From positions 1 to 18,230 of the forward strand of contig LJUI01000039.1 of the NCBI GenBank assembly GCA_001303705.1: a stretch of 18,230 nt of DNA, written 5' to 3'. The translations under genes were made by a program, and so were the position numbers. The notes beneath the pieces were generated by a model that was not told where the DNA came from, searched no databases, and was given only the letters and a program-made list of their open reading frames with translations. Positions 1,152-16,974 of the stretch are shown here, one piece after another; position 1 is the first letter of the stretch; each line of letters opens with the position of its first letter. This stretch comes from a candidate division TA06 bacterium SM23_40. GTDB lineage: Bacteria > LJUI01 > SM1-40.

Positions 1152-2396
1152 ATGGTGTACACGCTGATGCTACTGATGATGATGAATATGTGGCTCGTGC
1201 CTGTATCCGAGAATGTAGAAGTCCAGATCGCCGCCACGAACGATCCCAATGCTACGCTCGGCATTCCCAGGCACAAGGTCCATGTGTCGCAGAGCAATCC
1301 GGGTCAGTGGTGGGTGCTGTATGGCAAGCCGAGCGGCAACCTCAAAATGAGCACCGATAGGGGACAGACATGGACGGGCCTCGAACCGGATGCGATCACC
1401 GTCTGGGAATGGCTCGACTATCACGCCGAGATGGCGGGAGATGATGAAGGGAATCTCCACTTTACCTTCCCCGAACCGGCCGCCCACACACAGCTATACA
1501 GGCGGATGGACGCGCCGGCGCGGACTCGGAGCGACCTCCGTGCGGCGGTGACCCTGGCCGATCTGACGCCGGGCAATTGGAACCGCGGCTCGATACTCGT
1601 TGATGGCAGCACGGTGTGGGTATTCAGTCGATCGTCATATGCGGCGGCGGGGAATGTGCGGTACCACCGATCTACGGATGGAGGCATCACCTGGTATGCG
1701 ACACCGGAGGATTCCGGGTATGTGCGGCAGACCGGATGCTCGAATGTACGGATAGGGTCTGTAGAGTACATGGGCAAGCCGACGGTAGTCATCTGGTACG
1801 ACGGTGAGGGGTACCGCTACTACGTGCGGGAAGGGTCGAATTGGGTGGGGCATCCGGATTCGACGATCTACTGGGGCACATGCACGCGCCAGTTCAGTAT
1901 CTCGGTCATCGCCGACAGCACCTTTCATATCGTGTGGCAGGATACGGATGACTCCGGCCTGCTCCGGCATGCGTGGAAGCATTTCTCCGGTGGCACCGGC
2001 GAGTGGCATTACGGGATCGTCGACGAGAACCCGGGAAATGGCAATTTTCTCCCGATGCTCACCCGGTCGGGGACGACGCTCTACGTCGTCTACTCGCGCC
2101 TGGTCGGACAGAGGTACGAGCGTGCGATCTGCTACAGAGTGTGGAACGGAAATAACTGGAGCATCGTACCCCTCAGAGTGTCGCGGCTGAGCGATAACTG
2201 CCTCCACCCCAACGCTCCGCCGAGCGTGCCGCCGGAAGCGAACCATATCCCGGTCGTCTGGACCGCGGGTGCGAATGCGCCGTACAGAGTGATGTGCGGC
2301 AGAATGCCCGTCACACCGGTTCGAAGCATAAACGGGGCGACGTCGGGCTCAGGAGCTCGGATCCCTCGGAAAAAGCCAGAGAATGATCATGGATGA
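1152..2396 (+). CDS. Secreted sialidase-like (BNR/Asp-box) beta-propeller protein
   Basis: About 414 residues from ATG 1152 (416 from ATG 1146). The N-terminus is a short, strikingly Met-rich hydrophobic stretch of about 20 residues (MLLMMMNMW core) with no basic n-region, read as an atypical signal peptide or anchor. Two clear Asp-box motifs follow, STDRGQTW at about residue 67 and STDGGITW at about residue 174, each of the S-x-D-x-G-x-T-W form found on blades of six-bladed sialidase-type propellers. Trp/Tyr-rich blade strands continue to about residue 390, then a polar tail. Known relatives include sialidases and many non-enzymatic secreted propellers; the Arg triad and the Asp/Tyr/Glu set of true sialidases cannot be assigned confidently. 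It follows a gap of about 70 bases and overlaps the next gene by 14 bases. It may bind, trim or scaffold the exported glycan (inference). Confidence 0.72.
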   Translation: MVYTLMLLMMMNMWLVPVSENVEVQIAATNDPNATLGIPRHKVHVSQSNPGQWWVLYGKPSGNLKMSTDRGQTWTGLEPDAITVWEWLDYHAEMAGDDEGNLHFTFPEPAAHTQLYRRMDAPARTRSDLRAAVTLADLTPGNWNRGSILVDGSTVWVFSRSSYAAAGNVRYHRSTDGGITWYATPEDSGYVRQTGCSNVRIGSVEYMGKPTVVIWYDGEGYRYYVREGSNWVGHPDSTIYWGTCTRQFSISVIADSTFHIVWQDTDDSGLLRHAWKHFSGGTGEWHYGIVDENPGNGNFLPMLTRSGTTLYVVYSRLVGQRYERAICYRVWNGNNWSIVPLRVSRLSDNCLHPNAPPSVPPEANHIPVVWTAGANAPYRVMCGRMPVTPVRSINGATSGSGARIPRKKPENDHG

Positions 2397-3282
2397 GCAT
2401 CCGTTCCATTTCTCGTGCAATGGATCGAGGATCTTCGCGATCCTCCACTCACCAGAGCAGAGGGCCGGTGGGGAGTCGGGAAAAGGGTACATCTTCTGCG
2501 CGCCGCTCGGTGAGGAGCAGGTACGGACACGGCGCATATTCACCACCTTCGCGCGTGAACTCGCGCGGCGCGGGTCCTGGGTACTGCGGTTCGACTACCG
2601 GGGCGAAGGTGACAGCGATGGCCACTTCGAGGACGCGAGCCTCGAGACACGGGTCGAAGACGTGCGTGCGGCGATCTCGGAACTTCGTCGGCGGGCAGGT
2701 GTCGAGCGAGTAGGGTTGCTGGGTTTGCGGTTGGGAGGAACGCTCGCCCTGCTCGCCGGTGCGGAGCGCGGGGAGGTAGAGGATCTCGTTCTCTGGGCGC
2801 CGATCGTCGACATCTACGGCTACCTGTACAGTGCTCTCCGGGCGAATCTTGCCACGCAGACCCTCGTCTATCGCGAGATTCGAGCGACGAGGGACGAACT
2901 CCTCGAACGTTGTCGCCGGGGGGAGCCGGTGAACGTCCAGGGGTTTCTCTTCACCTGGGCGCTGTTCGAGCAGGCGAGGGCGATCGATCTCTCACAACAT
3001 GCGCAACAGTATCGTGGCCGGTCGCTCGTGATCGACCTTGCCAGGTCAACAAGAGACGTGGGCGGGGACGGCAATCGGAGCGAGGCACGATGCCTCTATG
3101 AGTGGCTCGCGGCGAGCGGCGTGAGCGATCTGATGTCGATCCAGCGCGAATTCTCGTGGGAGGAGACGCCGACGTGGAACCCGAGGCCCGAAAGGCTCTT
3201 CTCACAAACTCTGGAATGGGTCGACGCCTGTCGACAGCCGAAGAAGGTTGAATATGGAACACCCCGTCCAGTTTCTGAGTGA
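2383..3282 (+). CDS. Alpha/beta hydrolase, exosortase A-associated hydrolase 2-like, degenerate active site
   Basis: A 299-residue cytoplasmic alpha/beta-hydrolase-fold protein. The early core is standard: an oxyanion-region strand (YIFCAPLGEEQ), helix FARELARRG, then VLRFDYRGEGDSDG around residues 67-79. The nucleophile elbow reads GLRLGG at 114-119, so Arg116 sits where Ser/Cys/Asp is expected, and no His occurs in the usual C-terminal catalytic loop, which instead is rich in Trp and Glu (EFSWEETPTWNP). The architecture and its pairing with a second hydrolase match the hydrolase 2 family of exosortase A loci (TIGR03101-like), in which, as I recall, a non-Ser elbow is common. It may be a binding or partner subunit rather than a hydrolase. 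ATG 2383 lies inside the propeller gene; ATG 2389 is an alternative start. The gene overlaps the next by 29 bases. Confidence 0.75.
   Translation: MIMDEHPFHFSCNGSRIFAILHSPEQRAGGESGKGYIFCAPLGEEQVRTRRIFTTFARELARRGSWVLRFDYRGEGDSDGHFEDASLETRVEDVRAAISELRRRAGVERVGLLGLRLGGTLALLAGAERGEVEDLVLWAPIVDIYGYLYSALRANLATQTLVYREIRATRDELLERCRRGEPVNVQGFLFTWALFEQARAIDLSQHAQQYRGRSLVIDLARSTRDVGGDGNRSEARCLYEWLAASGVSDLMSIQREFSWEETPTWNPRPERLFSQTLEWVDACRQPKKVEYGTPRPVSE
3242..3247 (+). promoter_or_regulatory. Ribosome binding site deciding the start of the second hydrolase
   Basis: AGAAGG sits six bases before ATG 3254. It adjoins an in-frame TTG at 3248 with no spacing, so ATG 3254 is preferred. Confidence 0.6.
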
Positions 3283-4183
3283 GGCCGGTCACCGGTTGAT
3301 GGGAATCCTGCACGTTCCTCACGGACCGGGGCGGCCGGCGGGGTATGGCCTCGTCCTGCTCAACATCGGGCTCCACTACCGCGTCTGCCACAACCGCCTG
3401 TTTGTGAAGCTGGCGAGAGCTCTGTCGCGAGAGGGATACCACGTCCTCCGCTTCGACACACACGGCGTCGGGGACAGCGAGGGTGAGATCGAGGCTGGAT
3501 CTGTCCTGGTCCACTTCGATCGCGTCCAGAGAGGACTCTTCGTCCCGGACACCCGCGCAGCGCTCGACCACCTGTCCCGGGAACTGGGGCTGGAGCGGTT
3601 TGTTCTCGCCGGGTTGTGCGGCGGGGCGCTCACGGCAATCCACACTGCTGCCGAGGATCGACGTGTACAGGGAGTCATCTTCATCGCAGGGCCGATGACT
3701 GTGACATCTCCCACCGAGGACCGGGAGTTCCACCCGTGGGAGGCCGGTCAGTGGCTCGCTGGATACAGGGCGAGGCTCCGTAACCCTCGTGCATGGGCGC
3801 GCCTCGTCTCCGGGAAGAGCGACTATGGGATGATGGTCAGAGCGCTCGCCGTCAAGATGCACCATCGCTGGTGCCAGATGTGGACCGGGTCCGCACTGGG
3901 CCGGCCGGGAGCAGCGCCGGGCGGACACTTCAATACGCACTATCTCGACTCATTCCAACGCTTCGTGGGGAGGGGAGGGAAGGTGTTGTTCGTCTTCCCC
4001 GAGCTCGATAAGACGGCAGAGGAATTCGAGATCTATTTCGACAAGCCAATACTCACGCAAACGCGCGCGTTCGAGGGGAAGTACGAGATCCTCAGGATCG
4101 AGCGTGCCAATCACTCATTCACGCTCGCAGAGTCCCAGGAGCGACTGAGGGATGGTGTTCTGACGTGGCTTCGCACAGCATGA
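3254..4183 (+). CDS. Alpha/beta hydrolase with Cys nucleophile, exosortase A-associated hydrolase 1-like
   Basis: 309 residues from ATG 3254. The N-terminal pattern NIGLHYRVCHNRLFVKLAR, then VLRFDTHGVGDSEG, is very close to the hydrolase 1 family of exosortase A systems (TIGR03100-like). The elbow reads GLCGG, making Cys122 the likely nucleophile. Asp252 (FPELDKT) is a candidate acid and His287 (ANHSFTLAES) the base, so a full Cys-Asp-His triad can be drawn. In XrtA loci this protein is encoded next to hydrolase 2, the gene order seen here. Cys-nucleophile members may be thioesterases or acyltransferases; the substrate is not established. The C-terminal stop TGA overlaps the following ATG (ATGA at 4180-4183). 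It probably acts in the cytoplasm on an activated acyl group made by the ligases downstream (inference). Confidence 0.8.
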   Translation: MEHPVQFLSEAGHRLMGILHVPHGPGRPAGYGLVLLNIGLHYRVCHNRLFVKLARALSREGYHVLRFDTHGVGDSEGEIEAGSVLVHFDRVQRGLFVPDTRAALDHLSRELGLERFVLAGLCGGALTAIHTAAEDRRVQGVIFIAGPMTVTSPTEDREFHPWEAGQWLAGYRARLRNPRAWARLVSGKSDYGMMVRALAVKMHHRWCQMWTGSALGRPGAAPGGHFNTHYLDSFQRFVGRGGKVLFVFPELDKTAEEFEIYFDKPILTQTRAFEGKYEILRIERANHSFTLAESQERLRDGVLTWLRTA

Positions 4184-5178
4184 GGCGATCGGTCGCCGTC
4201 TGTATTGTTAACTGGAACGGCGGTGACCTGATCCGACAGTGTATCAGGTCGGTCCGTGGTGGGCGCGATCTTCACCGCGAGGTCGTTGTCGTCGACAACG
4301 CATCGCGCGACGGGAGCCCGGATCGGATCGCCCTCGAGTTTCCCGATGTGCGGCTCATCCGAAACCGGGAGAACATAGGGTTCGCCCGGGCGAATAACCA
4401 GATGCTGCGCCAACTCACCGCCGACTACTTCCTCCTCCTCAATCCTGATGCGGTCCTCATGCCCGGCGCACTCGAACGCATGGTCGAGTTCATGGATGCT
4501 CATCCGCGCGCCGGAGCGTGCAGTCCGCTCGTCGTCGACGAAAGTGGTGGAGACCAGTGGGTTCCCACTCGATTTCCGACGGTGTGGGGCGAGCTCTGTT
4601 ACTGCGCCACGTTCCTCCTGGCCCCGCTCTCCTGGGTACTTTGCCGCTGGAGGGCATATGGCCGCGAGCGAGTGTGGAGGAGCGTGTGCGGAGACGGACG
4701 GCAGGGGATCCGGGTCGATGTTCTCAACGGGGCATGCCTCCTCGTCCGTCGCCAGGCACTGGTCCAGATCGGGCCGCTCGAGGAGCGCTTCTTCCTCTTC
4801 TCAGAGGAGGCCGACTGGTGCCGGCGCATGCAGCTGGCAGGATGGGGTCGGTACTGGATCCCGTCCGCGACGGTCGTGCATCTGGTTGGCAGGAGCCGGG
4901 CCCATCTCCCGGAGGCGAGCGGGGCGGTCCACTTCTATCGGAGCCGCGTGCTCCTGTTCGCGATCCACCGCGGCCGGCTCCAGGCGGAGATCGTGCACAG
5001 TCTCTATCGCCTCTCCTGGCGGTGGAACATACTGGTCGGGATGGTCGGCGGAATGGTGCGGCCGGGGCGGCGGGCGGCGGACGAGCGGATCGCGCATTAT
5101 CGAACTCTGGCCAGTGAACTGAGCCGCAGCGACGGCGATACGCACAGGATAGGCCGGCAGACGAGGCAGGGGCGGTAA
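4180..5178 (+). CDS. Glycosyltransferase family 2, rhamnosyltransferase-like
   Basis: 332 residues from ATG 4180, chosen because it overlaps the previous stop as ATGA; a GTG at 4165 in the same frame would add only five residues. GT2 signatures are clear: IVNWNGGD at 9-16, VVDNASRDGS at 37-46, RENIGFARANNQ around 63-74, and LLNPDA at 86-91 (the DxD-equivalent, Asp90). GACLLVRRQAL lies near 185 and FSEEADWCRR near 207-216, with Asp212 as the likely catalytic base. This arrangement is typical of WbbL-type dTDP-rhamnosyltransferases, though the sugar cannot be read from the sequence. The C-terminus is basic with a mildly hydrophobic segment (NILVGMVGGMV) that may touch the membrane. It presumably adds a sugar to the lipid-linked repeat unit on the cytoplasmic face. 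The stop is shared with the next start (TAATG). Confidence 0.9.
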   Translation: MRRSVAVCIVNWNGGDLIRQCIRSVRGGRDLHREVVVVDNASRDGSPDRIALEFPDVRLIRNRENIGFARANNQMLRQLTADYFLLLNPDAVLMPGALERMVEFMDAHPRAGACSPLVVDESGGDQWVPTRFPTVWGELCYCATFLLAPLSWVLCRWRAYGRERVWRSVCGDGRQGIRVDVLNGACLLVRRQALVQIGPLEERFFLFSEEADWCRRMQLAGWGRYWIPSATVVHLVGRSRAHLPEASGAVHFYRSRVLLFAIHRGRLQAEIVHSLYRLSWRWNILVGMVGGMVRPGRRAADERIAHYRTLASELSRSDGDTHRIGRQTRQGR

Positions 5179-6680
5179 TGAGGGAATTTCTCAAGGGAAT
5201 CGGCAAGCATTCGGTTGTCTACGGCCTGGGGGATATGCTCTCCAAGACGGTGGGGTTCTTCCTCATCCCTCTATACACGCGATACCTGGAGACGTGGGAG
5301 TACGGGACGCTCGAGGTGATGTTCGTCACGCTCAATATCGCCGCGATCTTTGCCCTCCAAGGGATGGCGAGCGCGCTGATTCGCGCTTACCTCTTCGACC
5401 ACACTGACAGCGAAGCAACACAGCGCCAGGTGCTGAGCACGGGGTTTTTCTATCTCGCCGGGTCATGTGCGTTCATCTACGGCGGCCTCATCTTCTGGGC
5501 GCCGGCCATATCCCGGCTCCTGTTGCGCTCGACGGAATGGGCAGGCCTGTTGCGCTGGGTCTTCCTGACTGGCTTCCTGACGACGGTGTCGTACGTATCG
5601 TTCGCCTATCTCCGTGCCCGCGTGAAGTCCGCGGCGTTCGTCAGCATCAAGCTCTTCTCTGCTGTGCTCAACATTTCGCTCAACATCTATCTGGTCGTCG
5701 TCGTCGGTCTGGGGTTGGCGGGGATCATCTACAGTAATTTTATCGCAGCGCTTGCCGTCTTCATCATCGGGCTCGTGGTGCTCCGCCACCAGCTCGTACT
5801 CCGGATCGATATCGAGAAGCTACGCGGCATGCTCAGCTACGGACTGCCTCTCGTTCCCACAGGTCTGGCGCTCTGGATCCTGGCGGTCTCCGACCGCTAC
5901 TTTCTCCAGTTCTTCTCTACACAGGGGGAGGTCGGCCTCTATTCGCTGGGAGATAAATTCGCGCATATCTTCAGCGTGATGCTCGTCCACCCATTCACCC
6001 TCGTCTGGTCGGCGTTCTATTTTCCGCTCGCGCGCCAGCCTCACGCACGTGAGACATTGGGGCGGTTCCTCAGTTACTTTGTCGCGGCCGCGGGGTTCGT
6101 CGGAATCGGTGTGGCTGCGGGCTCAAACATCCTCATCCGCCTCGCGGCGCCGCCGGAATACTGGCGGGCCCGGGGGGTCGTTGCGCCGCTCGTCGCCTCC
6201 GGTGCTCTCTTCGCGGTGATTCTCGTCCTCGATGCCGGGATCGGGATCACGAAAAAGACGAAGTACCTGCCCCCCATAGTCATGAGTGCAGCCGCGGTCA
6301 ACATGGGGCTCAACGGGCTCCTCATTCCGCGGTGGGGGATGATGGGAGCGGCCTGCGCCACGCTGGGATCGAACATGGTCTACTGCACCATCGCCTATGT
6401 GGTGAACCAACGTCTGTACCCGGTGCCGCACGACTGGGGCCGCCTCGTGAGGGCAGGAGGAACGTTCATTCTGTTGTTGGCGACCACATATCTCATCGAC
6501 ACGGGTAGCATGGGCCGCGACGTCGCCCTTGCGGCCGGCCTCGTCGCGGCCTACCCGATACTCCTTTTTATCTCTGGATTCTTCACCGAGGACGAGCGAA
6601 GAGCGGCGGTGCAGTCTGCCGTTGCCGCCGCCGGCAGCCTGACCAGGCTCGCCGCGCCGATCCGCGCCCTGTGGGGGTGA
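5178..6680 (+). CDS. Polysaccharide flippase, MOP superfamily (Wzx-like)
   Basis: A 500-residue integral membrane protein with about 12-14 hydrophobic segments running almost end to end. The opening, with GKHSVVYGLGDMLSKTVGF followed by LIPLYTRYL and a YG-x-LEV segment, is characteristic of polysaccharide-transporter (PST) members of the MOP exporter superfamily. The repeat-like second half includes YGLPLVPTGLALWIL and SDRYFLQFF, also typical of the family. The role is to flip undecaprenyl-linked repeat units from the cytoplasmic to the periplasmic face. Length is normal for Wzx. It starts on ATG 5178, which overlaps the preceding TAA by one base, and a purine-rich GGCAGGGGCGG lies just upstream. 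Together with the O-antigen ligase-type protein at 10066-11532 it implies Wzx/Wzy-style rather than ABC-transporter export. Confidence 0.93.
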   Translation: MREFLKGIGKHSVVYGLGDMLSKTVGFFLIPLYTRYLETWEYGTLEVMFVTLNIAAIFALQGMASALIRAYLFDHTDSEATQRQVLSTGFFYLAGSCAFIYGGLIFWAPAISRLLLRSTEWAGLLRWVFLTGFLTTVSYVSFAYLRARVKSAAFVSIKLFSAVLNISLNIYLVVVVGLGLAGIIYSNFIAALAVFIIGLVVLRHQLVLRIDIEKLRGMLSYGLPLVPTGLALWILAVSDRYFLQFFSTQGEVGLYSLGDKFAHIFSVMLVHPFTLVWSAFYFPLARQPHARETLGRFLSYFVAAAGFVGIGVAAGSNILIRLAAPPEYWRARGVVAPLVASGALFAVILVLDAGIGITKKTKYLPPIVMSAAAVNMGLNGLLIPRWGMMGAACATLGSNMVYCTIAYVVNQRLYPVPHDWGRLVRAGGTFILLLATTYLIDTGSMGRDVALAAGLVAAYPILLFISGFFTEDERRAAVQSAVAAAGSLTRLAAPIRALWG

Positions 6681-6687
6681 TACGAAA

Positions 6688-8625
6688 GTGCCCGGATTGT
6701 ACGGATTTATGAGGCGCGAGCCAGTGCCTGAGGAGGCCAATCGAGAGCTCCTCCGGCGCATGGGGTCTGCCCTGAGACATGGACCGACCTATACCCTGGA
6801 CTGGCATTTTGATGAGCGCACCGCGATAGCGACGATTGCGCCTCGGCCGGGAGGAGATACAGCACTCGCATGGGACGGCGACCGGACGGTCTGTGTCGCT
6901 CTGGCAGGTACGTGTTCGTACGCGGGCGGGAATGGAGGGCGAGAAGGGAGGGCGACGCCTTCGGCTCTGGTCCGGACGTGGAGACGTGAAGGTGAGTGCA
7001 TGGCTCCCGGGCTGCGCGGCGAGTTCGTGGTGGGCATCCTCGATGCCGGGAAGACGGAAATCACGCTCATCGTCGGTCCATTCGGCCTGCGCCGCCTGTA
7101 CTATGCCGTCACTCCGCACATTGTGCTCTTCGCACCAGAGGTGAAGGCGATCCTCGCCTGCCGAGAGGTAGAGCGGGAAGTCGATGATGTTGCGATCGCA
7201 GACCTCGTGAGTCTCTCCTATGTCCTGGGTGAAAGGACACTCTTTCGCGCAATATCTCGTGTTCCGGCCGGGACGATGCTCAGGATCAGTCCGGCCGGCG
7301 TCGATCAGAAAACGTACGTACAGCCTGGGTATGGTGGGAGGGTGGATGCAGCTGGCGAGGAGGAGGCGGTCGGGGAGGGTGAAGCGGTGGTGGAGGTGAT
7401 CCGCCTCCTCCGCCAGGCTGCGGCACGGCAGGTTGCAGGCGCGGCCAGGGTCGGTGTCTCTCTCAGTGGGGGACTCGATTCCCGGCTCGTCCTCGCTCTG
7501 GCCCGTGAGGAGGCGAGCGACGTCGGCGCGTATACATTTGGCACCTACCGCAATGAAGAACGAAAGATCGCGCAGACGGTGGCCGAGGCTGCGGGAGCCG
7601 ATGACTACTCGTGGCTCCCGTTGCGGGCTGACCGCCTTCCCGAAGAGCTGACCGCCGCGGTCTGGATGACTGACGGGATGATCGAGGCGACCTCCGGTCG
7701 TACGCTCAACTCGATACGCGAGCAGGCGGGGAGGCGGGACATGCTTCTCGTCGGCCTGTACGGGGAGAGCATCCTGGGGGGAGACAAGTTCACGGACGAG
7801 GAGATACGCACCGACCTCTCTCTGGACGAGGAGCTCGCCGGGATCGAGCGGGGGCTCGGCCTCCAGCACAACCTGCCACTCTGGCAGCACATCTTCGATG
7901 CAGGCGTAATCCGGGCATTCGAAGATCGAGTGCGCGGAGATATCGCTAAAGAATATGCGCGTTCGCGTGGGGTCTCACCCTTCTTCTCGGATCGAAAGGA
8001 CCACTTCTTCCTGATGCACCGCGCCCGGCGCTATCTCGGCGAGGCGTGTCTGGAGAGTTACTTCGCCTCTGATGGGTTCCTCTTCTTCGACTACGATCTG
8101 GTCTCCTATCTTCTTTCGCTCCCACCGGCAGTACGCGCGAAACACCGTCTCTATGCACAAGTCATGGCCCGGGCCTGCCCTGTCCTGGCGGGCATCCCCT
8201 GGCAGCGAACCGGAGCACCTGTGTATGCCCGGGCACCTCGAACGCGGCGGTGGCGGCGAGTGGTGTCGGGTCGATTCCGGGATCTGACCCGGAAGGCGAG
8301 TCTGGGAGGAATCGACCTGCCCGATCCCTCGCGGGCCACGGACTTCGATCGCTGGTATCGCGTCTCACATCTCTTCCGCCGGTTTGTCCGCGATGCGCTG
8401 CTCGATCGTGGAGCAGTCTGTCGTCCGTGGTACAGACCGGGAGGGGCTGAGAGACTCCTCCGCTGGCAGGATGCGGGAAAGAATTACTCATTCCTCATAT
8501 CGAGACTTCTGGCGCTCGAGCTCTATTGGCGCGAGCTCGGCAGGCGGGGACTGGACGGGGAGGTCGATCCGGGGACGGCGAGATCCGAGCGAGGAATGAT
8601 GAAGGGAGGAACGACCAGGGTATGA
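6688..8625 (+). CDS. Asparagine synthetase-like protein lacking the glutaminase Cys
   Basis: 645 residues from GTG 6688, seven bases after a GGGGTGA purine run. The start is supported because MPGLYGFM aligns with the invariant MCGI-G opening of class II amidotransferases. Here residue 2 is Pro, so the N-terminal nucleophile Cys is missing. Other glutamine-site motifs are also lost: RHRGPD has become RHGPTY (30-35) and FNGEIYN has become VALAGTCSY (70-78). The overall fold is kept (FGLRRLYY, FAPEVKAIL). A Glu-rich linker (about 220-235) leads to an intact synthetase domain with the PP-loop SGGLDSR at 260-266. The ATP-dependent amide-forming half therefore looks usable, with free ammonia or an amine as nucleophile rather than glutamine-derived ammonia. 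Beta-lactam synthetase is a known homologue without Cys2. It likely modifies a carboxylated sugar or acyl group (inference). Confidence 0.85.
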   Translation: MPGLYGFMRREPVPEEANRELLRRMGSALRHGPTYTLDWHFDERTAIATIAPRPGGDTALAWDGDRTVCVALAGTCSYAGGNGGREGRATPSALVRTWRREGECMAPGLRGEFVVGILDAGKTEITLIVGPFGLRRLYYAVTPHIVLFAPEVKAILACREVEREVDDVAIADLVSLSYVLGERTLFRAISRVPAGTMLRISPAGVDQKTYVQPGYGGRVDAAGEEEAVGEGEAVVEVIRLLRQAAARQVAGAARVGVSLSGGLDSRLVLALAREEASDVGAYTFGTYRNEERKIAQTVAEAAGADDYSWLPLRADRLPEELTAAVWMTDGMIEATSGRTLNSIREQAGRRDMLLVGLYGESILGGDKFTDEEIRTDLSLDEELAGIERGLGLQHNLPLWQHIFDAGVIRAFEDRVRGDIAKEYARSRGVSPFFSDRKDHFFLMHRARRYLGEACLESYFASDGFLFFDYDLVSYLLSLPPAVRAKHRLYAQVMARACPVLAGIPWQRTGAPVYARAPRTRRWRRVVSGRFRDLTRKASLGGIDLPDPSRATDFDRWYRVSHLFRRFVRDALLDRGAVCRPWYRPGGAERLLRWQDAGKNYSFLISRLLALELYWRELGRRGLDGEVDPGTARSERGMMKGGTTRV

Positions 8626-10088
8626 AGCGTCTGTTGCTTATCAGCTATGCCTTCCCGCCGATGGCTGCGGTGGGAGGCCATCGAACGGTCAAGTTCGCCA
8701 AGTTCCTCCCTGAATTCGGGTGGGAGCCGACAGTCCTGACCGTACGCTCGGGGTTCAACTACGCCTACGACCCCAGCCTGCTCGACGATCTCCCGGGATC
8801 ATTGAAAGTGCTGAGGACCCCGTCTATGGAGCCGCTCCGCTGGTGGGAGGGTCGAAAAGGGAGGGAGACCGAGTATGCATCAGGCGAGGAGGTCGACCGG
8901 TGGGGGAGTTCGCTCCCTACGGGATCGGAAACGGAATGTTCTTGCAGCGCGGTCGGGGGCCCGGCGAGAGATATGGGGAGAGCAGCGCGCGGGATCAAGC
9001 AGCTGGCCCGGGACCTTCTCACCACGCCTGATGAGCAGGTGTGGTGGATACCGTTTGCGGTGGCGGCCGGGCTGAAGGCAGTCGCGGACGGCATCGACGT
9101 CATCTATACCACAAGTCCTCCCCACTCCACGCATCTCGCCGGTTGGCTTCTCTCATTGCTCACCGGAAAGCCGTGGGTGGCAGATTTTCGGGATCTATGG
9201 ACGTCGAACATCCATTTTCTCCCGTCGCGGCGCGGCGGGAAGAGGGAGAGGGTAGAGCGATGGCTCGAGGCGCGTCTGTTGCGTGATGCTGCAGCGATCA
9301 TCACTACTTCTGAGAAGTCGCGCGAGCTGCTCTCTTCGCAGATAGGTGGGAATGGACGGGCAGATCGCGAGGCCCGCACCCGGTGGTTCACTATCACGAA
9401 CGGATTCGATCCGGACGATTTCGCTGATGCCGTAGAGGAGGGAGGTCGAGGCGTACAGCCCGGCTCGCTCAGTCCACGCGACTGGGGCCTCCTGCGCGAG
9501 AGGGATGGCGGCAGGTTCATCATCACCTTTCTCGGCAGCCTGTACGGCGACCGGCGCCCTGACCTGCTCCTTGCCGGTCTGAGGGAGTGGTTCCGCACCG
9601 AGCCCGAGGTACGGCCATTCGTGCGGGTGAAGCTTGTGGGGAATAAGTCCCCGGATATCGAGGGCCGGCTCAGTCTCGGTGAGCTCGTGGGATCGATCGA
9701 CATATCTGGTCACCTGCCGCACCGCAAGGCCCTCGCGTTATTGAGGCGCTCGAACCTGTTGCTGCTGTTGCTGGGCGGAGGAGAGGAGAACGGGGGGGTC
9801 ATACCTGCGAAGCTTTTCGAATATCTCTATGTCGGGCAGCCCATCCTGGCGCTGGTGCCGGAGGGAGAGGCAGCTATGCTTGTCCGGCTGCTTGCCCGTG
9901 GAAGCGTGGTCACCGAAGAGAGTCCGCAGGCCGTTGCCCGTGAGCTGCGGTACTGGTATCGCGCCTGGCGGGGGGAGATCGATCCGCCTCCTACGGATGG
10001 CGGGGGCCTGCTCTCTCTCTATGAGCGAAGGAACTGTACGTCCATGCTGGCGAGGGTGCTGGAGTATGTACGAAAAGACAATAGATAG
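8622..10088 (+). CDS. Glycosyltransferase family 4-type (GT-B fold)
   Basis: 488 residues from ATG 8622, which overlaps the preceding TGA as ATGA; GGGAGGA lies 11 bases upstream. The opening MKRLLLISYAFPPMAAVGG is the typical first strand and glycine loop of GT4-like enzymes. VADFRDLW follows near residue 190, an ITTSEKSRELL strand-helix near 230, ITNGFDPDDF near 264, and ITFLGSLYGDRRPDLL near 305. The donor-binding motif is IPAKLFEYLYVGQPIL around 394-409, with Glu400 the conserved glutamate. Residues of about 76-120 form a charged, low-complexity insertion absent from the core fold. The enzyme is predicted to be a cytoplasmic, nucleotide-sugar-dependent transferase; donor and acceptor are unknown. 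Its end overlaps the next gene by 23 bases. Confidence 0.88.
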   Translation: MKRLLLISYAFPPMAAVGGHRTVKFAKFLPEFGWEPTVLTVRSGFNYAYDPSLLDDLPGSLKVLRTPSMEPLRWWEGRKGRETEYASGEEVDRWGSSLPTGSETECSCSAVGGPARDMGRAARGIKQLARDLLTTPDEQVWWIPFAVAAGLKAVADGIDVIYTTSPPHSTHLAGWLLSLLTGKPWVADFRDLWTSNIHFLPSRRGGKRERVERWLEARLLRDAAAIITTSEKSRELLSSQIGGNGRADREARTRWFTITNGFDPDDFADAVEEGGRGVQPGSLSPRDWGLLRERDGGRFIITFLGSLYGDRRPDLLLAGLREWFRTEPEVRPFVRVKLVGNKSPDIEGRLSLGELVGSIDISGHLPHRKALALLRRSNLLLLLLGGGEENGGVIPAKLFEYLYVGQPILALVPEGEAAMLVRLLARGSVVTEESPQAVARELRYWYRAWRGEIDPPPTDGGGLLSLYERRNCTSMLARVLEYVRKDNR

Positions 10089-11532
10089 TAGCCCGGGCCT
10101 CGGATGGCTCTGTTCGCGGGAGGGCGCGCGCATTGCAGTTCCGCTCTGCCTTGCAATCCTGGCGCTGGTGATCGGTGTCTCTCTCGCGGGGTCACCCATC
10201 GTCGGGTATGCAGCGCTGGGGGCTTCGGCCCTTGCGCTCCTCGTAGTCATCCTGCTGCACGATCCATTCTGGGGGCTCGCCGCATACATGGTGACGTTCT
10301 ATGTGCGGCCTGGGGAGCTCGTGCCCGCCCTGGCTCCGCTGCATATCGAGCGGGTGGTGGGGCTGCTGGCGCTGGCCGCGCTCATCTGGCATCGACGTAC
10401 AGGGGAGCGGTGGGAGGCACTGAACCATCGCGTCACGCTCATGATGGCGGGTTTCCTCGGCATCATGGCGCTCTCTGTCGTCACGGCATACTGGAAGACG
10501 CTGGCTATCCTGGAAACGATCGAATTCGCCAAGATCCTGGTGGCCTATCTCCTGATCATCGGTCTGGTGAACAGCGAGAGGAGAATGGGGGCGTTTGTCT
10601 GGATCTACCTGGTGCTCATCGGCTGGACCGCCGGGTCATCCCTGTGGGGGTTCTTCTCGGGCGCCAACCGGGGGTTTGCCATGGGGATCGACAGGGCGCG
10701 CGGCCTCGCGCTCGCCTGGGGTCATCCCAACTCCCTGGCGATGACGCTTCTCGCCGCGGTCCCCTTTCTGTACCTGCTCATCCCCGTGGAGCGACGACGG
10801 CCTGCACGGCTAGTCCTCATATTGATCTTTGCGCTCTCGTTGCTGACGATCATGTACACCGGTTCGCGGGCGGGAATGCTCGGCGTCCTCGTCGCGGCGG
10901 TCGCACTCTGGTGGCGGACAGGGAGGCGGCCGGCGATGTTCGTCGGCATTACAGTCGCACTCCTGTGTGCGGCGCTGCTGATGCCATACCAGTACCAGAT
11001 GAGGATGGTATCGATCCTCGACTATCAGCAGGATCCGTCATCTCTCGGCAGGATCGACTCCTGGATCTCCGGCCTTCACATGTTCCTCGACAGGCCGCTC
11101 CTCGGGGTAGGGCCCGGCAATTTCGGCATCGCGCACGGCCTGGCTTACTCCTCTCCCTGGCGTCCGAGCTGGCTCGAGGCCCACAGCATCTACATTCAGC
11201 TGCCGGCAGAACTGGGCCTGGTCGGGCTCGTCTGGTTCGCGGGCATACTCTTCGTTGTCGCACGTGTGAACCGGAAGACGAGGCAGATGCTCGTAGCCGG
11301 AGGGAACGTGTGGAGCTGGCACTACCGGCTGGCAGTCGCGCTCGACATCAGTCTCGTCGTCCTTCTGTTCACCGGGCTGTTCGGGCATAACCTGTACAGG
11401 CCGACCTACTATTTCATCGCGGGGATGTCGGTGGCGCTGGCGTATATCGTCCGTCAGGTCGCAGCCGGGGGGCCTGCAAGTGCGCAGAATAGTGCGCAGG
11501 GAATGAGCAACAAACGTTGGGAAGTGACGTAA
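10066..11532 (+). CDS. O-antigen ligase/polymerase-type membrane protein (Wzy_C family)
   Basis: About 488 residues from ATG 10066, with GGAG close upstream; in-frame ATG 10021 is a less likely, longer start. Some 10-12 hydrophobic segments are visible from residue 20 onward. The family motifs are GSRAGMLGVLV at 266-276, the periplasmic-loop signature LLGVGPGNFG at 346-355, and HSIYIQLPAELGLVGL starting with His373. These are characteristic of WaaL/Wzy-type proteins and of the O-glycosylation ligases associated with exosortase loci. The protein would use lipid-linked glycan on the periplasmic side, either polymerising it or transferring it to an acceptor; sequence alone does not decide which. 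No second Wzy candidate is present in the window, which makes the polymerase role plausible. The stop is shared with the following start (TAATG at 11530-11534). Confidence 0.88.
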   Translation: MYEKTIDSSPGLGWLCSREGARIAVPLCLAILALVIGVSLAGSPIVGYAALGASALALLVVILLHDPFWGLAAYMVTFYVRPGELVPALAPLHIERVVGLLALAALIWHRRTGERWEALNHRVTLMMAGFLGIMALSVVTAYWKTLAILETIEFAKILVAYLLIIGLVNSERRMGAFVWIYLVLIGWTAGSSLWGFFSGANRGFAMGIDRARGLALAWGHPNSLAMTLLAAVPFLYLLIPVERRRPARLVLILIFALSLLTIMYTGSRAGMLGVLVAAVALWWRTGRRPAMFVGITVALLCAALLMPYQYQMRMVSILDYQQDPSSLGRIDSWISGLHMFLDRPLLGVGPGNFGIAHGLAYSSPWRPSWLEAHSIYIQLPAELGLVGLVWFAGILFVVARVNRKTRQMLVAGGNVWSWHYRLAVALDISLVVLLFTGLFGHNLYRPTYYFIAGMSVALAYIVRQVAAGGPASAQNSAQGMSNKRWEVT

Positions 11533-13004
11533 TGAGCGACCATACCACGCGAATCATCAGATCGGTTGTCCATCCCCTGTGGGCGTTGAAGGACGGAAGC
11601 AGACACCTCTCCTACCTTCGCCTGTACGAACAGACGCAGCACTGGTCGCGCGAGCGCCTGGAGGAGATGCAGTGGCGCCGCCTGGAGAAGCTCCTCTCTC
11701 ATGCGTACGAGTTCTCTCCATTCTATAGGGATCGGTTCCGGAGGTGGGGGCTCGAGCCCCGAGACATCCAATCCCCGGACGATCTTCGCCGTCTCCCTGT
11801 GCTGACGAAGGAGGATATCCAACAGTCAGGACAGCACATGGTCTCGACATCGAGCAGGCGGGAGGAGCTGATCCCGGACATGACCGGGGGCTCGACGGGA
11901 AGGCCGCTTCGCTTCTGCCGTGACCGGTTTGCTGACTCGCACCGCCGCGCGGCGACGTTCCGGCACAATAGGATGGCCGGCTGGAATCTGGGGGATAAGG
12001 TCGGTGTGGTGTGGGGTGCACGGCGCGATCTCGTGGGGCTGCGGGGATGGAAGGCAGAGGTGAGGAGCCGGCTGCTCGAGCGGCAGCGGGTGCTCGACGC
12101 GTCTTCCATGGGCCCTCGGGAGATGGCCAGATTCGGGGAGATCCTGACCCGGTTTCGCCCGACAGTCCTCTTCGGGTATGCCAAGGCGATGGCGATCTTC
12201 GCGCGGTTTCTCAGCGAGACGGGGATCGACGGCATCCATCCCCAGTCAGTCGTTACATCGGCCGAGATGCTGGAGCCCGGTGAACGGCTCCTCATCGAGC
12301 AGGCCTTCGGCTGCCCGGTCTATGACCGGTACGGATGTCGTGAGGTGGGCCTGATCGCAAGCGAATGCGAGTATCGCGGGGGACTCCATATCAACGCAGA
12401 GAGTCTATACGTCGAAATCATGAGCAACGGTGTGCCCGCCAGGCCCGGAGAGCTCGGGCATGTCGTCATCACCGATCTGGTCAATTACGCGATGCCGATG
12501 ATCAGGTATCGGATCGATGACCTGGCCTCGCCTGCCGCCGCATCGTGTAAGTGCGGCCGAGGTCTGCCCCTCATCGATAAAATCGCAGGGAGGACGACGG
12601 AGTTCATCGTCCTGCCGGACGGCCGGCTCGTCTCCGGCGCCTCGCTCACCATCTATCTTGTGGCCAGGATCAAGGGCATCGGGCAGGCACAGCTCATCCA
12701 GGAAGATCCGACAACAGTGAGAGTCCGCGTCGTGCCGGATCACGAGTTCGGCGACGCGACGATCGATTCGTTCTGTGCGCAGGCGAGGGAGATCATGGGA
12801 GATGGCATCTCGTTCCGGTTCGAGCTATGCGACCGTATCGAGAGGGAATCCTCGGGCAAGTACCGGTTCTGCATCTCGAACGTGGCCGGAGACAGGTTCT
12901 CTGCAGGGATCCCTTCATATGATGGCCGTATAGACGACCGGTCCGCGTCGGGCGGGGAGAGGCCGACCGGGGATTCCGTCGAGGCGGACGGAGAGGGGAG
13001 ATGA
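11532..13004 (+). CDS. PaaK/CapK-type adenylate-forming enzyme, copy 1
   Basis: 490 residues from ATG 11532, which overlaps the previous TAA; TTG 11517 would be a weaker start. It belongs to the ANL superfamily, phenylacetate-CoA ligase branch, often annotated CapK in capsule loci. Visible motifs are HAYEFSPFYRDRF near 57-69, the P-loop-like TGGSTGRP at 118-125, YGCREVG at 267-273, ITDLVNYAMPMIRYR near 313-327 and SGKYRF with Lys443 as the likely catalytic lysine. A CKCGRG segment before the hinge is also typical of PaaK relatives. It should activate a carboxylic acid as an acyl-adenylate and pass it to CoA or another acceptor; the acid is unknown. It is followed directly by a clear paralogue, suggesting tandem duplication with divergence. 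The C-terminal 35 or so residues are polar and lie beyond the usual domain end. Confidence 0.88.
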   Translation: MSDHTTRIIRSVVHPLWALKDGSRHLSYLRLYEQTQHWSRERLEEMQWRRLEKLLSHAYEFSPFYRDRFRRWGLEPRDIQSPDDLRRLPVLTKEDIQQSGQHMVSTSSRREELIPDMTGGSTGRPLRFCRDRFADSHRRAATFRHNRMAGWNLGDKVGVVWGARRDLVGLRGWKAEVRSRLLERQRVLDASSMGPREMARFGEILTRFRPTVLFGYAKAMAIFARFLSETGIDGIHPQSVVTSAEMLEPGERLLIEQAFGCPVYDRYGCREVGLIASECEYRGGLHINAESLYVEIMSNGVPARPGELGHVVITDLVNYAMPMIRYRIDDLASPAAASCKCGRGLPLIDKIAGRTTEFIVLPDGRLVSGASLTIYLVARIKGIGQAQLIQEDPTTVRVRVVPDHEFGDATIDSFCAQAREIMGDGISFRFELCDRIERESSGKYRFCISNVAGDRFSAGIPSYDGRIDDRSASGGERPTGDSVEADGEGR

Positions 13005-14479
13005 CGGTGATCGGTGAGTGTCTCGATCGGTTCGGCCATCTGGCCTCGAAACACGTGACCTATCCCCTGTGGCTGGCGCGGGAGGGCGAGAGCAGAGTCC
13101 TCCGCTACATGCGCGAGTTCGAGGAGGTGCTGTCGTGGCCGCGCCTGAGGATCGAGGATCTCCAGACGAGACGACTCCGGGCGATCGTGCGCCATGCATA
13201 CGAGACGACTCCCTATTATCGTGACCGGTTCGACCGCGCCGGCGTGAAGGTCGAGATGATCAAGGATCCCACGGATCTCCGCCTCATTCCCCGGCTGACA
13301 AAAGAAGATCTCAGGCACCACGCCCACGATCTCATGTCGCGGCATTATCCCCTGGGCAGTCTCTTCAGGAGCGCAACCGGGGGCTCGACGGCGACACCCA
13401 TCCGGTTCTACCAGGATACCGACAGTGTGCTCCGCCGGGTCGCCCACACGCATGTCTTCAATCGCTGGTACGGTCTTGATCTCGGGGAGAAGATGGCGCT
13501 CCTGTGGGGAGCGGCGCAGGATCTGACGGCGATCGATTCCATCAAAGATAGGGTGAAGGAGCGATATATATTCCGCCGCATGATACTTCCCTGCGCGCGC
13601 CTTGATGAGGGGATGCTCGATCTATATGTACGGCGGCTCAGGGAGTTCCGTCCCACTCTGCTCCGCGGATATACGAACAGTCTGTTCGCCCTCGCCCAGT
13701 ACATTCTGGCAACCAAGAGCGAGGTGCCGCTGGAGGCGGTGGTCAGTGCCGCTGAGCCACTCTACCCCTTCCAGCGGCCTGTCATCGAGGAGGCGTTCGG
13801 AGCTCCGCTCTTCGAACAGTATGGCTCTCGCGAGGCAGGCCTGATGGCGAGCGAGTGCCAGGCCCACGGACCGCTCCATGTCGATGCGGCGAGCATCTGT
13901 CTGGAGATCGTCGATCGCGGGGGAAAGGCCGGTAAGGACGATCGTATTGCGACCTCCGATGCGGGGGCTTCGCGCGAGGGAGAAATTCTCGTGACCGATC
14001 TCTTCAACTACGGGATGCCGCTCCTGCGCTATGCCATCGGGGATCTCGGGCGCTGGGACGGCGATGGATGCGGCTGCGGGGCCGGGCTTCCGGCGCTGGC
14101 CCAGGTATCGGGCAGAGTGACGGATTCGATCCTGACGCCGGACGGGACGCTCGTCTCCGGCGCCGCCCTGACCGTCTATCTCGTGGCAGACCGCCCGGGG
14201 TTCAAGCAGCTCCAGGTGGTTCAGGAGAGACTCGAAGGGGTGACGGTTCGTATCGTCCCTTCTGAATCGTACACGGAGTCCGATATGGAATACTTGAGAA
14301 GACAATTGCGGCGGTTCCTGGGCACATCGATGAAGATCGACTACAGATTCGAATCCGAGATACCGAAAGAGGCCTCGGGGAAGTATCGCTACGTTGTCTC
14401 GAGCCTCTGGTCGAGCAGGGCGGAGAGTCCGGGCGCTGCCGATCAGGGCGATGCCGCTACACAAGGAGGAGAGAAGTGA
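13001..14479 (+). CDS. PaaK/CapK-type adenylate-forming enzyme, copy 2
   Basis: 492 residues, starting on ATG 13001 in an ATGA overlap behind a GAGAGGGGAG run. It shares the motifs of the preceding gene in the same order: HAYETTPYYRDRF near 65-77, TGGSTATP at 126-133, YGSREAG at 274-280, VTDLFNYGMPLLRYAIGDLG in the middle of the C-terminal third and SGKYRY with Lys461. The A3 loop reads STA rather than STG, a difference from copy 1 worth noting; the catalytic lysine and the Arg-Glu pair after the YG motif remain, so activity is expected. It contains an insertion relative to copy 1 (GKAGKDDRIATSDAGASREG, about 307-326). Two copies may activate two different acids or act at successive steps. 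It likely works in the cytoplasm alongside the hydrolases and amide-forming enzymes (inference). Confidence 0.88.
   Translation: MTVIGECLDRFGHLASKHVTYPLWLAREGESRVLRYMREFEEVLSWPRLRIEDLQTRRLRAIVRHAYETTPYYRDRFDRAGVKVEMIKDPTDLRLIPRLTKEDLRHHAHDLMSRHYPLGSLFRSATGGSTATPIRFYQDTDSVLRRVAHTHVFNRWYGLDLGEKMALLWGAAQDLTAIDSIKDRVKERYIFRRMILPCARLDEGMLDLYVRRLREFRPTLLRGYTNSLFALAQYILATKSEVPLEAVVSAAEPLYPFQRPVIEEAFGAPLFEQYGSREAGLMASECQAHGPLHVDAASICLEIVDRGGKAGKDDRIATSDAGASREGEILVTDLFNYGMPLLRYAIGDLGRWDGDGCGCGAGLPALAQVSGRVTDSILTPDGTLVSGAALTVYLVADRPGFKQLQVVQERLEGVTVRIVPSESYTESDMEYLRRQLRRFLGTSMKIDYRFESEIPKEASGKYRYVVSSLWSSRAESPGAADQGDAATQGGEK
14463..14470 (+). promoter_or_regulatory. Strong ribosome binding site before a GTG start
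   Basis: AAGGAGGA, a near-perfect anti-16S match, ends five bases before GTG 14476. It fixes the start of the double glycosyltransferase on a GTG that overlaps the previous stop (GTGA). It also supports a bacterial host. Confidence 0.75.
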
Positions 14480-16974
14480 GAGTTCTCGTGCTTGACGAGG
14501 AACTCCCAGTTCCACCCGATGCCGGGAAGCGCATCCGGACGCTGAGCCTCCTCTCGCGGCTCGCGCGGAAGAACGAGATCACGTTTCTCGCTCCGGGCGA
14601 TCTTCGGCGTTCGAGCGAGGCGGTCGAGACGCTCCGGTCGGTGGGTCTCCGCGTTATCCTCGTGCCCGTTGCGGGGACGAGCGCGAACGCGAACGCGGAC
14701 GGGGAAGCTCCTGACCAGGGGGGGATCCGGTTTCTCTCGCGCCTGTTGCTGAATATGGGTGAACGCTATCCGTATTCTGTGGTCCGTCATTTCAGCCGGG
14801 AAGTGGAGCGTGCGGCAGTCAAGGCATGGAGCAGCGGGGCATACGACCTCGTCCACTGCGAGTGGACACCTTTCGCTCCCCACCTCCGCCAGCTCGGCCG
14901 CGCTCCCGCGGTCATCATGTGCCACAATGTCGAGTCTGAGATCTGGGGGCGGCAGGCGAGGTATGGATCGAGTTACCTGGCGAGAGCATATTCGTTCTTC
15001 CAGTGGAGGAAGATGGATCGGTTCGAGCGAGAGGCGTTCCGCGAACTCGGGCCTGCGATCGTGGTCTCCGAGCGAGATGGGCAGATACTCCGCAATCGAT
15101 ATGGAGCGACGGTTCTCGGCGTCGTGGAGAACGGTGTCGACACGGACTACTTCACTCCGCACCCCGAGGGGGAGCAGGATGGCGAGGTGGTCTTCGTCGG
15201 ATCGATGGACTGGCGGCCCAACCAGGACGCTGTCAACTACCTCCTCGATGAGATATGGCCGCGTCTCCGGGTGGAGCACGGCGGTCTTCATCTCACGATC
15301 GTGGGGAGGCGTCCTCCGCGGTCGCTCGTCGAACGGTGTGCTCGCACCTCTGATGTCGACTGCACCGGCAGAGTGGACGACGTGCGCCCGTACCTGGAGC
15401 GCGCAGCACTCGTCGTCGTCCCCCTTCGTATCGGCGGGGGGAGCAGGATCAAGATCCTCGAGGCGATGAGTGCGGGGAAGGCGGTGGTTGCGACACGCGT
15501 GGGGGCGGAGGGTCTTGAGGTGGAGCCGGGAAGGCATTGTATCGTGGCCGATAGCCCTCGTCAGTTTGCCGATGAGGTCGGTGCCCTGCTCGTGTGCCGC
15601 GAGCGGCGGACCCGGCTGGGAGATGAAGGTCGCCGGCTCGTGACGGAGCGATACGGATGGGATCGGATGGCGGGGCATCTTCATAGCATGTGGGAGAAGG
15701 CGCTGCGGCAGGACCACAACGGTAACCGCGCGCGGAGAGCGCCACGGAGCGGCGGAAGCGGTGGCCGGCAGTCGGTTCGGGTTTCGTGCCGGGCAGCGAA
15801 GATGCAGGGCGAACGGGTCGGCGCGGTCAGCGTCATGCATCTCCGGGCGAGCGAGTTCGTGGGCGGGCCGGAGAAGTTGATATTGGAGCAGTGCAATGGC
15901 GACAGAGCGGGGAGATATCAGTTCATCGTCACATCGTTCACTGCCCGGAGCAACGGCGACGGGAACGCTCTATTGCGTGCCGCCGCAGAACGCGGCCTCT
16001 CCATCGCTTCGATACAGAGCCGCTGGCGTTTCGATCCATCTGTTGTGCAGCAATTGGCCCGCCTCATCGAGAAGGAAGTCGTCGATATCATCTGTGCGCA
16101 TGGGTACCGGGCTCGCCTGACTGCCTATGCGGCAAGAATCCTCACGGGGAGGCCGGTCGTGGCGGTATGTCATGGCTGGACGGGCGAGGATGCGAAGGTG
16201 CGGATATATGAAACCGTCGATCGAAGAATGCTCCGGTATGCAGACCACGTCGTGGCTGTCTCCCGCTCTATGGAGCGGCAGATACTCGGTCTGGGCGTGG
16301 AGGACGAGCGTATCTCCGTCATTCCCAATTCGATCGAGCTCGCCCGTCGCGGTGCTGGCCAGGGTAATGGGCGGTCCGGCCGCGAAGGGAGACGGGGGCT
16401 GAGGGCCGATCTCGGCATCGGGGAGCGCATACCCCTCATCATCAGCGCCGGCCGGCTCAGTCCGGAGAAGGGTCACCGATTCCTCCTCCGCGCAGTACCC
16501 GCCGTTCTCGAGCAGATCCCGGAGGCCCACATCGCGGTCCTCGGTGAGGGGCCGGAACGCGGGAACCTCGAGGCGATTGCACAGGAGCTGGGCATCGAGG
16601 GCCATCTCTCGTTCCCGGGATTCCGGAGCGATCTGGACGAACTGTGGGAGGAAGTCGACCTATTCGTTCTCCCCTCTCTTTCCGAGGGATTGCCCCTGGT
16701 CATCCTGGAGGCTATGGGCGCAGGGGTCCCGTGCGTGGCGACAGAGGTGGGGGGCGTGCCGGAGGTGATCCGGCACAGGGAGACAGGGATGGTAGTCCCG
16801 GCCGGCTCTCCTTGTGCCCTTGCTCATGCCATCCTCGAGGTGATGAGCGATCTGGAATTGAGGTCGAGGCTCGGCAGGGGAGGCAGGCGCCTGGTGAGGT
16901 CGCGCCATGCATGGTCGAGGAACAGAGAACTTCTGGGGAAGGTCTATGAGCGAGTACTGGCGAAAAGGCGGTGA
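14476..16974 (+). CDS. Double glycosyltransferase: two GT4 domains in one chain
   Basis: 832 residues, twice the usual GT4 length. Domain 1 (about 1-410) opens LVLDEELPVPPDAGKRIRTL, resembling the sugar transferase type 1 of exosortase loci (TIGR03087-like). It contains CHNVESEIW, VVENGVDTDYF and the donor motif IGGGSRIKILEAMSAG (319-334). A basic, Gly/Ser/Arg-rich linker follows (about 412-445). Domain 2 (about 450-832) starts VMHLRASEFVGGPEK, with VCHGWTGED, VIPNSIEL, ISAGRLSPEKG and the EX7E motif Glu737-Glu745 (SEGLPLVILEAMGAG). Both donor sites look intact, so the protein may add two sugars in succession. A real fusion is simplest, but a frameshift error in the linker is possible: a TAA at 15723-15725 in another frame would end domain 1, and ATG 15802 or 15835 could begin domain 2. 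The end overlaps the next gene by 29 bases. Confidence 0.87.
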   Translation: MRVLVLDEELPVPPDAGKRIRTLSLLSRLARKNEITFLAPGDLRRSSEAVETLRSVGLRVILVPVAGTSANANADGEAPDQGGIRFLSRLLLNMGERYPYSVVRHFSREVERAAVKAWSSGAYDLVHCEWTPFAPHLRQLGRAPAVIMCHNVESEIWGRQARYGSSYLARAYSFFQWRKMDRFEREAFRELGPAIVVSERDGQILRNRYGATVLGVVENGVDTDYFTPHPEGEQDGEVVFVGSMDWRPNQDAVNYLLDEIWPRLRVEHGGLHLTIVGRRPPRSLVERCARTSDVDCTGRVDDVRPYLERAALVVVPLRIGGGSRIKILEAMSAGKAVVATRVGAEGLEVEPGRHCIVADSPRQFADEVGALLVCRERRTRLGDEGRRLVTERYGWDRMAGHLHSMWEKALRQDHNGNRARRAPRSGGSGGRQSVRVSCRAAKMQGERVGAVSVMHLRASEFVGGPEKLILEQCNGDRAGRYQFIVTSFTARSNGDGNALLRAAAERGLSIASIQSRWRFDPSVVQQLARLIEKEVVDIICAHGYRARLTAYAARILTGRPVVAVCHGWTGEDAKVRIYETVDRRMLRYADHVVAVSRSMERQILGLGVEDERISVIPNSIELARRGAGQGNGRSGREGRRGLRADLGIGERIPLIISAGRLSPEKGHRFLLRAVPAVLEQIPEAHIAVLGEGPERGNLEAIAQELGIEGHLSFPGFRSDLDELWEEVDLFVLPSLSEGLPLVILEAMGAGVPCVATEVGGVPEVIRHRETGMVVPAGSPCALAHAILEVMSDLELRSRLGRGGRRLVRSRHAWSRNRELLGKVYERVLAKRR

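Follow-up and report, generated by a model that had tools for sequence, protein, structure and literature searches.

Known chemistries on the asparagine synthetase fold

For the most part, the known enzymes that make amide bonds without glutamine on the asparagine synthetase (AsnB) fold belong to antibiotic and RiPP pathways. Beta-lactam and carbapenam synthetases have no working glutaminase and belong to antibiotic clusters, and the lasso peptide cyclases (NF033535) use the fold to form an amide bond to an amine. Proteins of the WbpS type (TIGR03108) are glutamine enzymes. They have the AsnB fold, occur in surface-glycan clusters with FemAB-like neighbours, and amidate uronic acids in these glycans (PMC7468200).

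The protein described here, AsnL (a working name), is encoded in an 18,230-nt stretch of DNA (the window) that spans the entire contig C148 of a 2.88 Mb MAG, and the protein resembles each of these systems in part. Three haloarchaeal plasmid proteins annotated as ‘asparagine synthase-related’ (Halorientalis WP_077208155.1, Natronococcus WP_252490896.1 and Halomarina WP_254547419.1) are homologous to AsnL over the full length; like it they lack the nucleophile Cys2 (starting MVG- or MPG-), carry SGGSDSR, and read GLYAD where the window protein reads GLYGE. Their neighbours are glycan-type as in the window and include a flippase (adjacent, in Natronococcus), sulfatase/phosphatase-like proteins and a GNAT protein. 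They differ in being archaeal and ~25% identical to AsnL, and the placement of these Cys-less proteins with the window protein is supported at 88/50 only. Beta-lactam and carbapenam synthetases match the AsnL model over both domains (Z ~24-25) and have likewise lost the Glu-Tyr pair of the DExxGGY loop, which reads GYGADIPLGGM and GYGSDLLFGG, respectively; this strengthens the comparison with beta-lactam synthetase drawn in an earlier, sequence-only reading of the locus. However, their catalytic Tyr lies in GYG(A/S)D, whereas the Tyr of the window’s GLYGE is one position off and is unconserved among relatives, and AsnL belongs to a glycan cluster instead of an antibiotic one. The lasso peptide cyclase resembles AsnL in its fold and in the reaction we propose below, but AsnL scores 71 bits against the NF033535 cut-off of 525 and no lasso genes were recognised in the window. 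A lasso-cyclase-like fragment (L096, 486 bits) is also Cys2-less (MSAIVG), but keeps RGPD and SGGLDSS. The best PDB match to AsnL, by both predicted structure and sequence, is the hydroxyamidotransferase TsnB9 (PDB 7ylz), which in contrast keeps Cys2 (MCGVAG) and RGPD in the aligned region.

The asnL gene and the fold of its product

The asnL gene (6688..8625, + strand) encodes 645 amino acids from a GTG start. A ribosome-binding site, GGGGGTGA (6673..6680, + strand), lies 7 nt 5′ of this GTG, matches GGAGGTGA at seven of eight positions and overlaps the stop codon of the preceding flippase gene. The frame opens with MPGLYG (6688..6705, + strand), placing a Pro where Cys2 should be, as the sequence-only reading had claimed. 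From the upstream stop (6640) to 6688 the frame contains no other start codon, the ribosome-binding site at the GTG is good, and no Cys occurs in the protein before residue 69; an alternative start that restores Cys2, named in that reading as an observation that would undo it, is therefore ruled out.

Family models recognise AsnL poorly. Pfam Asn_synthase scores 64 bits, and GATase_7 matches residues 96-157 only (26.5 bits), leaving the nucleophile end unrecognised; all NCBIfam asparagine-synthase-type models score far below their cut-offs. AsnL is not a glutamine-hydrolysing asparagine synthase of TIGR01536 (98 bits against a cut-off of 267), given its Pro2 and the loss of RGPD/NGE and the DExxGGY pair, and of the family features compared it retains the SGGxDS PP-loop (SGGLDS, 260-265). 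Nor is it an XrtA/PEP-CTERM amidotransferase of the WbpS type (74 bits against 817). No PF09721 match, which would indicate an exosortase, was found in the window’s genome, a ~90% complete MAG. A second AsnB in the same genome is an ordinary MCGICG protein that scores 464 bits to TIGR01536.

An AlphaFold2 model of AsnL built from 29 sequences (pLDDT 72, pTM 0.77) aligns with AsnB-fold enzymes across both domains (residues 2-626), with Z scores of 29.8 for TsnB9, 26.4 for E. coli AsnB, 25.6 for human ASNS, 24.9 for beta-lactam synthetase and 24.3 for carbapenam synthetase. Confidence in the model is low in parts of the old glutaminase site (32-52 and 67-87).

Both active sites are altered

In alignments, the RGPD and NGE motifs of the glutaminase half read HGPT and AGT in AsnL, in agreement with the sequence-only reading, and its further claim of an intact PP-loop holds as well. 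This loop (S260-GGLDS-R266; 7465..7485, + strand) ends in an Arg, a residue that every protein of the 16-member group described below has at this position; canonical AsnB has Ser, Gly or Ala there. That reading missed the alterations in the synthetase half, where the pyrophosphate loop G356-LYGESILGG-D366 (7753..7785, + strand) replaces the canonical GxGxDExxGGY, such that Ser361 and Asp366 align with its Glu and Tyr. In addition, the segment I503-PWQRTGAP-V511 (8194..8220, + strand) replaces the canonical RxKxGF, with Arg507 at the position of the essential Lys.

Across the group, Cys2 is absent from all 16 members and RGPD is lost throughout. The NGE position is mostly DGE; because the Cys2-bearing AsnB of the window’s genome also reads DGE, the change of N to D in this motif is not diagnostic by itself. 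The group has a signature of its own, SGGxD[ST]R, in which Gly262, Asp264 and Arg266 are each invariant (16/16). Among the first nine members identified, the DExxGGY Glu is lost in all and the Tyr in eight; GLY[AG][DE] is common to the window protein (GLYGESILGGD) and the three haloarchaeal members, and [IV]P..xTG replaces RxKxGF in most members. The Mg-binding Asp (Glu360 in the window protein) and the essential Lys (Arg507) are kept non-uniformly. The window protein has also lost residues that most relatives keep (E461S, R463G and D130G). We found no conserved substitute in the group for the lost catalytic dyad.

These losses bear on what the enzyme could make. PesC relies for catalysis on the pair E363/Y368, which the E. 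coli enzyme, AsnO, TsrC and ScdTA share (PMC13060819); from the residue spacing, we read this pair as the Glu and Tyr of DExxGGY. In human ASNS, the amino group of the substrate sits in a pocket made up of Glu364, Asp367 and Glu368, the variants E364A, E364Q and D367A show no activity on aspartate and ammonia, and Lys466 is the essential Lys of AsnB (PMC6748925). Since the pair is lost in AsnL and the PesC and human data show that these residues are needed, asparagine is not the expected product. Amidating enzymes that use ammonia retain the DExxGGY pair (PMC13060819). The loss of Cys2 together with the Glu-Tyr pair is thus the pattern of the lactam synthetases and not of the ammonia-using enzymes, which by analogy points to an amine as the group that would capture the acyl-adenylate.

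A Cys2-less group across Bacteria and Archaea

Searches of genomes returned two kinds of match, many ordinary MCG- AsnB proteins and a few proteins similar to AsnL over the full length. Most matches of one genome search were ordinary Cys2 AsnB proteins whose similarity to AsnL spans only residues ~90-300, and these were set aside. The window protein alone as query found no relatives in genome contigs or viral contigs, a phylum-level search around the window’s genome matched only that genome itself, and a six-row alignment gave no usable pattern; a three-row alignment matched five loci, of which three are group members, and had no match in viral contigs.

The full-length relatives begin MPG-, MAG-, MAR-, MVG- or MIA-, never MC-, so that the absence of Cys2 is conserved and the proposal of a coherent glutaminase loss, as opposed to a point change, is upheld. 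They include L006/L086 from Candidatus Abyssobacteria SURF_17 (MARVVG; L086:10001-11887, better conserved than AsnL), L007 (MPGIAG), L062 (MPGLAG), L063 (MPGLVG), L064 (MAGLFG), L044 (MPGLYG), the Latescibacterota proteins L087 (MPGLAG) and L088 (MIAGF, with a less certain start call), and seven more from a single phylum, present in one to three copies per genome and starting MAG- or MPG-. The L044 frame (835-2628, G194) departs from family similarity after about residue 395, probably through a frame error in the MAG, and its first 390 residues alone were used. Outside the group, Cys2 is kept in 67 cellular homologues with a recognisable start and in 40/40 non-redundant homologues from viral contigs. 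The exception is a distant AsnB-like protein (L034:586-2457) that starts MSGICG, reads HRGTG and has an altered pyrophosphate loop.

We built a tree from the synthetase half alone, trimmed to begin 35 residues ahead of the PP-loop, and thus the N-terminus cannot drive the grouping. A branch supported at 100/100 sets the Cys2-less proteins apart, at first with nine members and then with 16 (the window protein and 15 others). When plasmid ‘asparagine synthase-related proteins’ were added, the three haloarchaeal ones joined the group and two formed a neighbouring long branch. Branches are long, and the exact sister of the window protein is unsure. AsnL has no Cys2, an Arg after SGGxD[ST], xTG in place of RxKxGF, and a position within the group on its synthetase half. 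On the evidence of its sequence, it is a member of a deep, uncharacterised AsnB-fold group in Bacteria and Archaea; we found no description of this Cys2-less group in the open-access literature.

Selection was measured on two orthologue pairs, taken from two species of one genus, that belong to a sister branch and not to the window protein’s own branch. Their dN/dS values are 0.164 (L204/L205) and 0.190 (L201/L203), and by domain they are 0.19 and 0.25 for the former glutaminase and 0.15 and 0.16 for the synthetase. Because both domains are constrained, these values indicate that the sister-branch proteins are in use and that the dead glutaminase domain is still needed.

A flippase recurs beside group genes

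In the window, asnL lies in a string of genes whose ends are close or overlapping. A Wzx-type flippase (Polysacc_synt_3; 5178..6680, + strand) is directly 5′, and a glycosyltransferase (MKRLLLISYAFPP; 8622..10088, + strand) starts within the end of asnL, overlapping its stop. Downstream are an O-antigen-ligase/Wzy-like membrane protein (9829..11532, + strand; true start probably further downstream), which scores 138 bits to TIGR03097 against a cut-off of 188, and two tandem CapK-like adenylate-forming ligases (11532..14479, + strand), given for context only; more glycosyltransferases follow beyond the CapK-like pair, including a single 832-aa frame with two GT4 glycosyltransferases (14476-16974). 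Upstream are a pair of alpha/beta hydrolases with overlapping genes (2383-4183), which are related to hydrolases 2 and 1 of the exosortase system but score under both cut-offs, and a WbuX/N-acetyl-sugar-amidotransferase-like PP-loop protein (41-1078; 134 bits, cut-off 203). The last would be a second PP-loop enzyme of the amide/amidine type in the cluster. WbuX-like proteins usually have a glutaminase partner, which in this genome would lie off the contig.

The sequence-only reading had tied asnL to the CapK and hydrolase 1/2 genes. This tie did not hold, as BLAST with all window proteins detected neither CapK nor hydrolase 1/2 homologues near seven relatives; a Wzx-type flippase recurs instead. 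It directly adjoins the group gene at four bacterial loci (the window, L035, L092 and L116). L092 has the window’s order of flippase, AsnL, GT4 (a homologue of the window glycosyltransferase) and O-antigen-ligase-like gene, with a transposase gene inserted, and near both L035 and L092 lie FemAB-like proteins whose relation to TIGR03019 is below its cut-off of 260 (71-87 bits). At L007/L036, an ABC-2 exporter adjoins the group gene. Within flanks of ~1.5 kb, a flippase was detected at 4/16 group genes compared with 1/65 Cys2 control loci; the Fisher p of 0.005 is optimistic because the probe derives from the very four flippases scored as positive and fails to detect the window’s own when that one is left out, making the control rate a lower bound. 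The Latescibacterota and G370-phylum members lie outside obvious glycan loci, and thus the glycan link holds for a branch and not for the whole group.

Proposed function and alternatives

We propose that AsnL is an ATP-dependent (AMP/PPi-forming), glutamine-independent amide ligase that joins a carboxylate to an amine and decorates a surface glycan; we infer substrate and catalysis, and give this reading a probability of about 0.4. ATP would bind at the PP-loop and a carboxylate would be adenylated, most likely a uronic acid of a lipid- or nucleotide-linked glycan, or an acyl or amino-acid unit destined for such a glycan. The adenylate would then be captured by an amine on a second substrate, as in beta-lactam synthetase, with the former glutaminase domain serving as a structural or substrate-binding part, and the amide-linked substituent would be added before the flippase exports the unit. 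The predicted fold over both domains, the grouping on the synthetase half, the constraint on both domains in the sister branch, the invariant Asp264 and Arg266, the lactam-synthetase-like loss of the DExxGGY pair and the adjacent flippase all favour this ligase. However, the Mg-binding Asp and essential Lys are not uniform, the window protein lacks three residues kept by most relatives, the dyad has no conserved replacement, and a glycan substrate cannot hold for members outside glycan loci.

The same variation is why a pseudoenzyme, although we consider it unlikely, stays a serious rival: both active sites are altered, and within its branch the window protein ranks with the most changed. Such a protein would keep the fold, perhaps bind nucleotide, and act without catalysis as a scaffold or regulator of flippase-linked export. 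A scaffold would not need so strict a PP-loop, however, and in the sister branch the synthetase half is the more constrained one.

Other PP-loop chemistry is quite improbable. Here the adenylate would be captured by a hydroxyl, thiol or hydroxylamine, or AMP would be transferred to the substrate; the fold does serve hydroxyamidotransfer, TsnB9 being the best structural match to the model, and nitrile formation (PMC13060819), but nothing in AsnL speaks positively for any such reaction. We regard as decidedly unlikely an ammonia-dependent uronamide synthase, which would convert a uronic acid to the uronamide product of WbpS/WbqG with ammonia that is free or supplied by another protein, such as the WbuX-like product of 41-1078. 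WbpS-type precedent in glycans (PMC7468200) and the ability of canonical AsnB and PesC to use ammonia (PMC13060819) make it conceivable, but AsnL has lost the dyad of the amidating enzymes, the human Glu364/Asp367 variants fail with ammonia too (PMC6748925), and the TIGR03108 score is far below its cut-off. Finally, a decaying gene or an assembly artefact, suggested by a single MAG whose gene has no known close relative, is largely refuted by group-wide conservation, with the same losses in several lineages and dN/dS well below 1 in relatives, and also by the gene itself, whose 645-codon frame is intact, resembles coding sequence in base composition, follows a good ribosome-binding site and belongs to a run of overlapping genes.

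To return to the proposed amide ligase, a broader claim, which we offer as a doubtful one, is that a cross-domain AsnB-fold family abandoned glutamine hydrolysis as well as the amidation dyad, and that one of its branches came to play on surface glycans the part that beta-lactam synthetase plays in antibiotic pathways. The ligase of this branch, encoded beside a flippase, would act between molecules, attach amines or amino acids to the carboxylates of sugars and supply amide-linked glycan substituents. If this is true, asnL would be a candidate gene for such substituents, and a widespread version linked to glycan export would extend this glutamine-free chemistry to cell-surface sugars. Group proteins are labelled as asparagine synthase though that enzyme’s two active sites are both altered in them, which is a warning for annotation.

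Further Cys2-less proteins

The G370-phylum paralogues (L198-L205 and L206-L212), one to three Cys2-less copies per genome, have degenerate PP-loops (SAGNDTR, SGGHDSR), with LEGxP replacing the pyrophosphate loop, and lie near carbamoyltransferase, cupin, amidase and DUF1028 genes. Two further Cys2-less proteins fall among the Cys2 rows of the tree and look like separate losses. The first, from a Streptomyces coelicoflavus plasmid (L217:4647-6455, MSGIAG), adjoins an acyl-CoA dehydrogenase gene and an NRPS-type adenylation gene, apparently a loss within a natural-product cluster. The second, apparently another separate loss, is from the tractable organism Azospirillum brasilense (p5; L216:6001-7818, MSRIAG) and lies directly 5′ of a gene for a nucleotide-sugar dehydrogenase, a maker of sugar acids.
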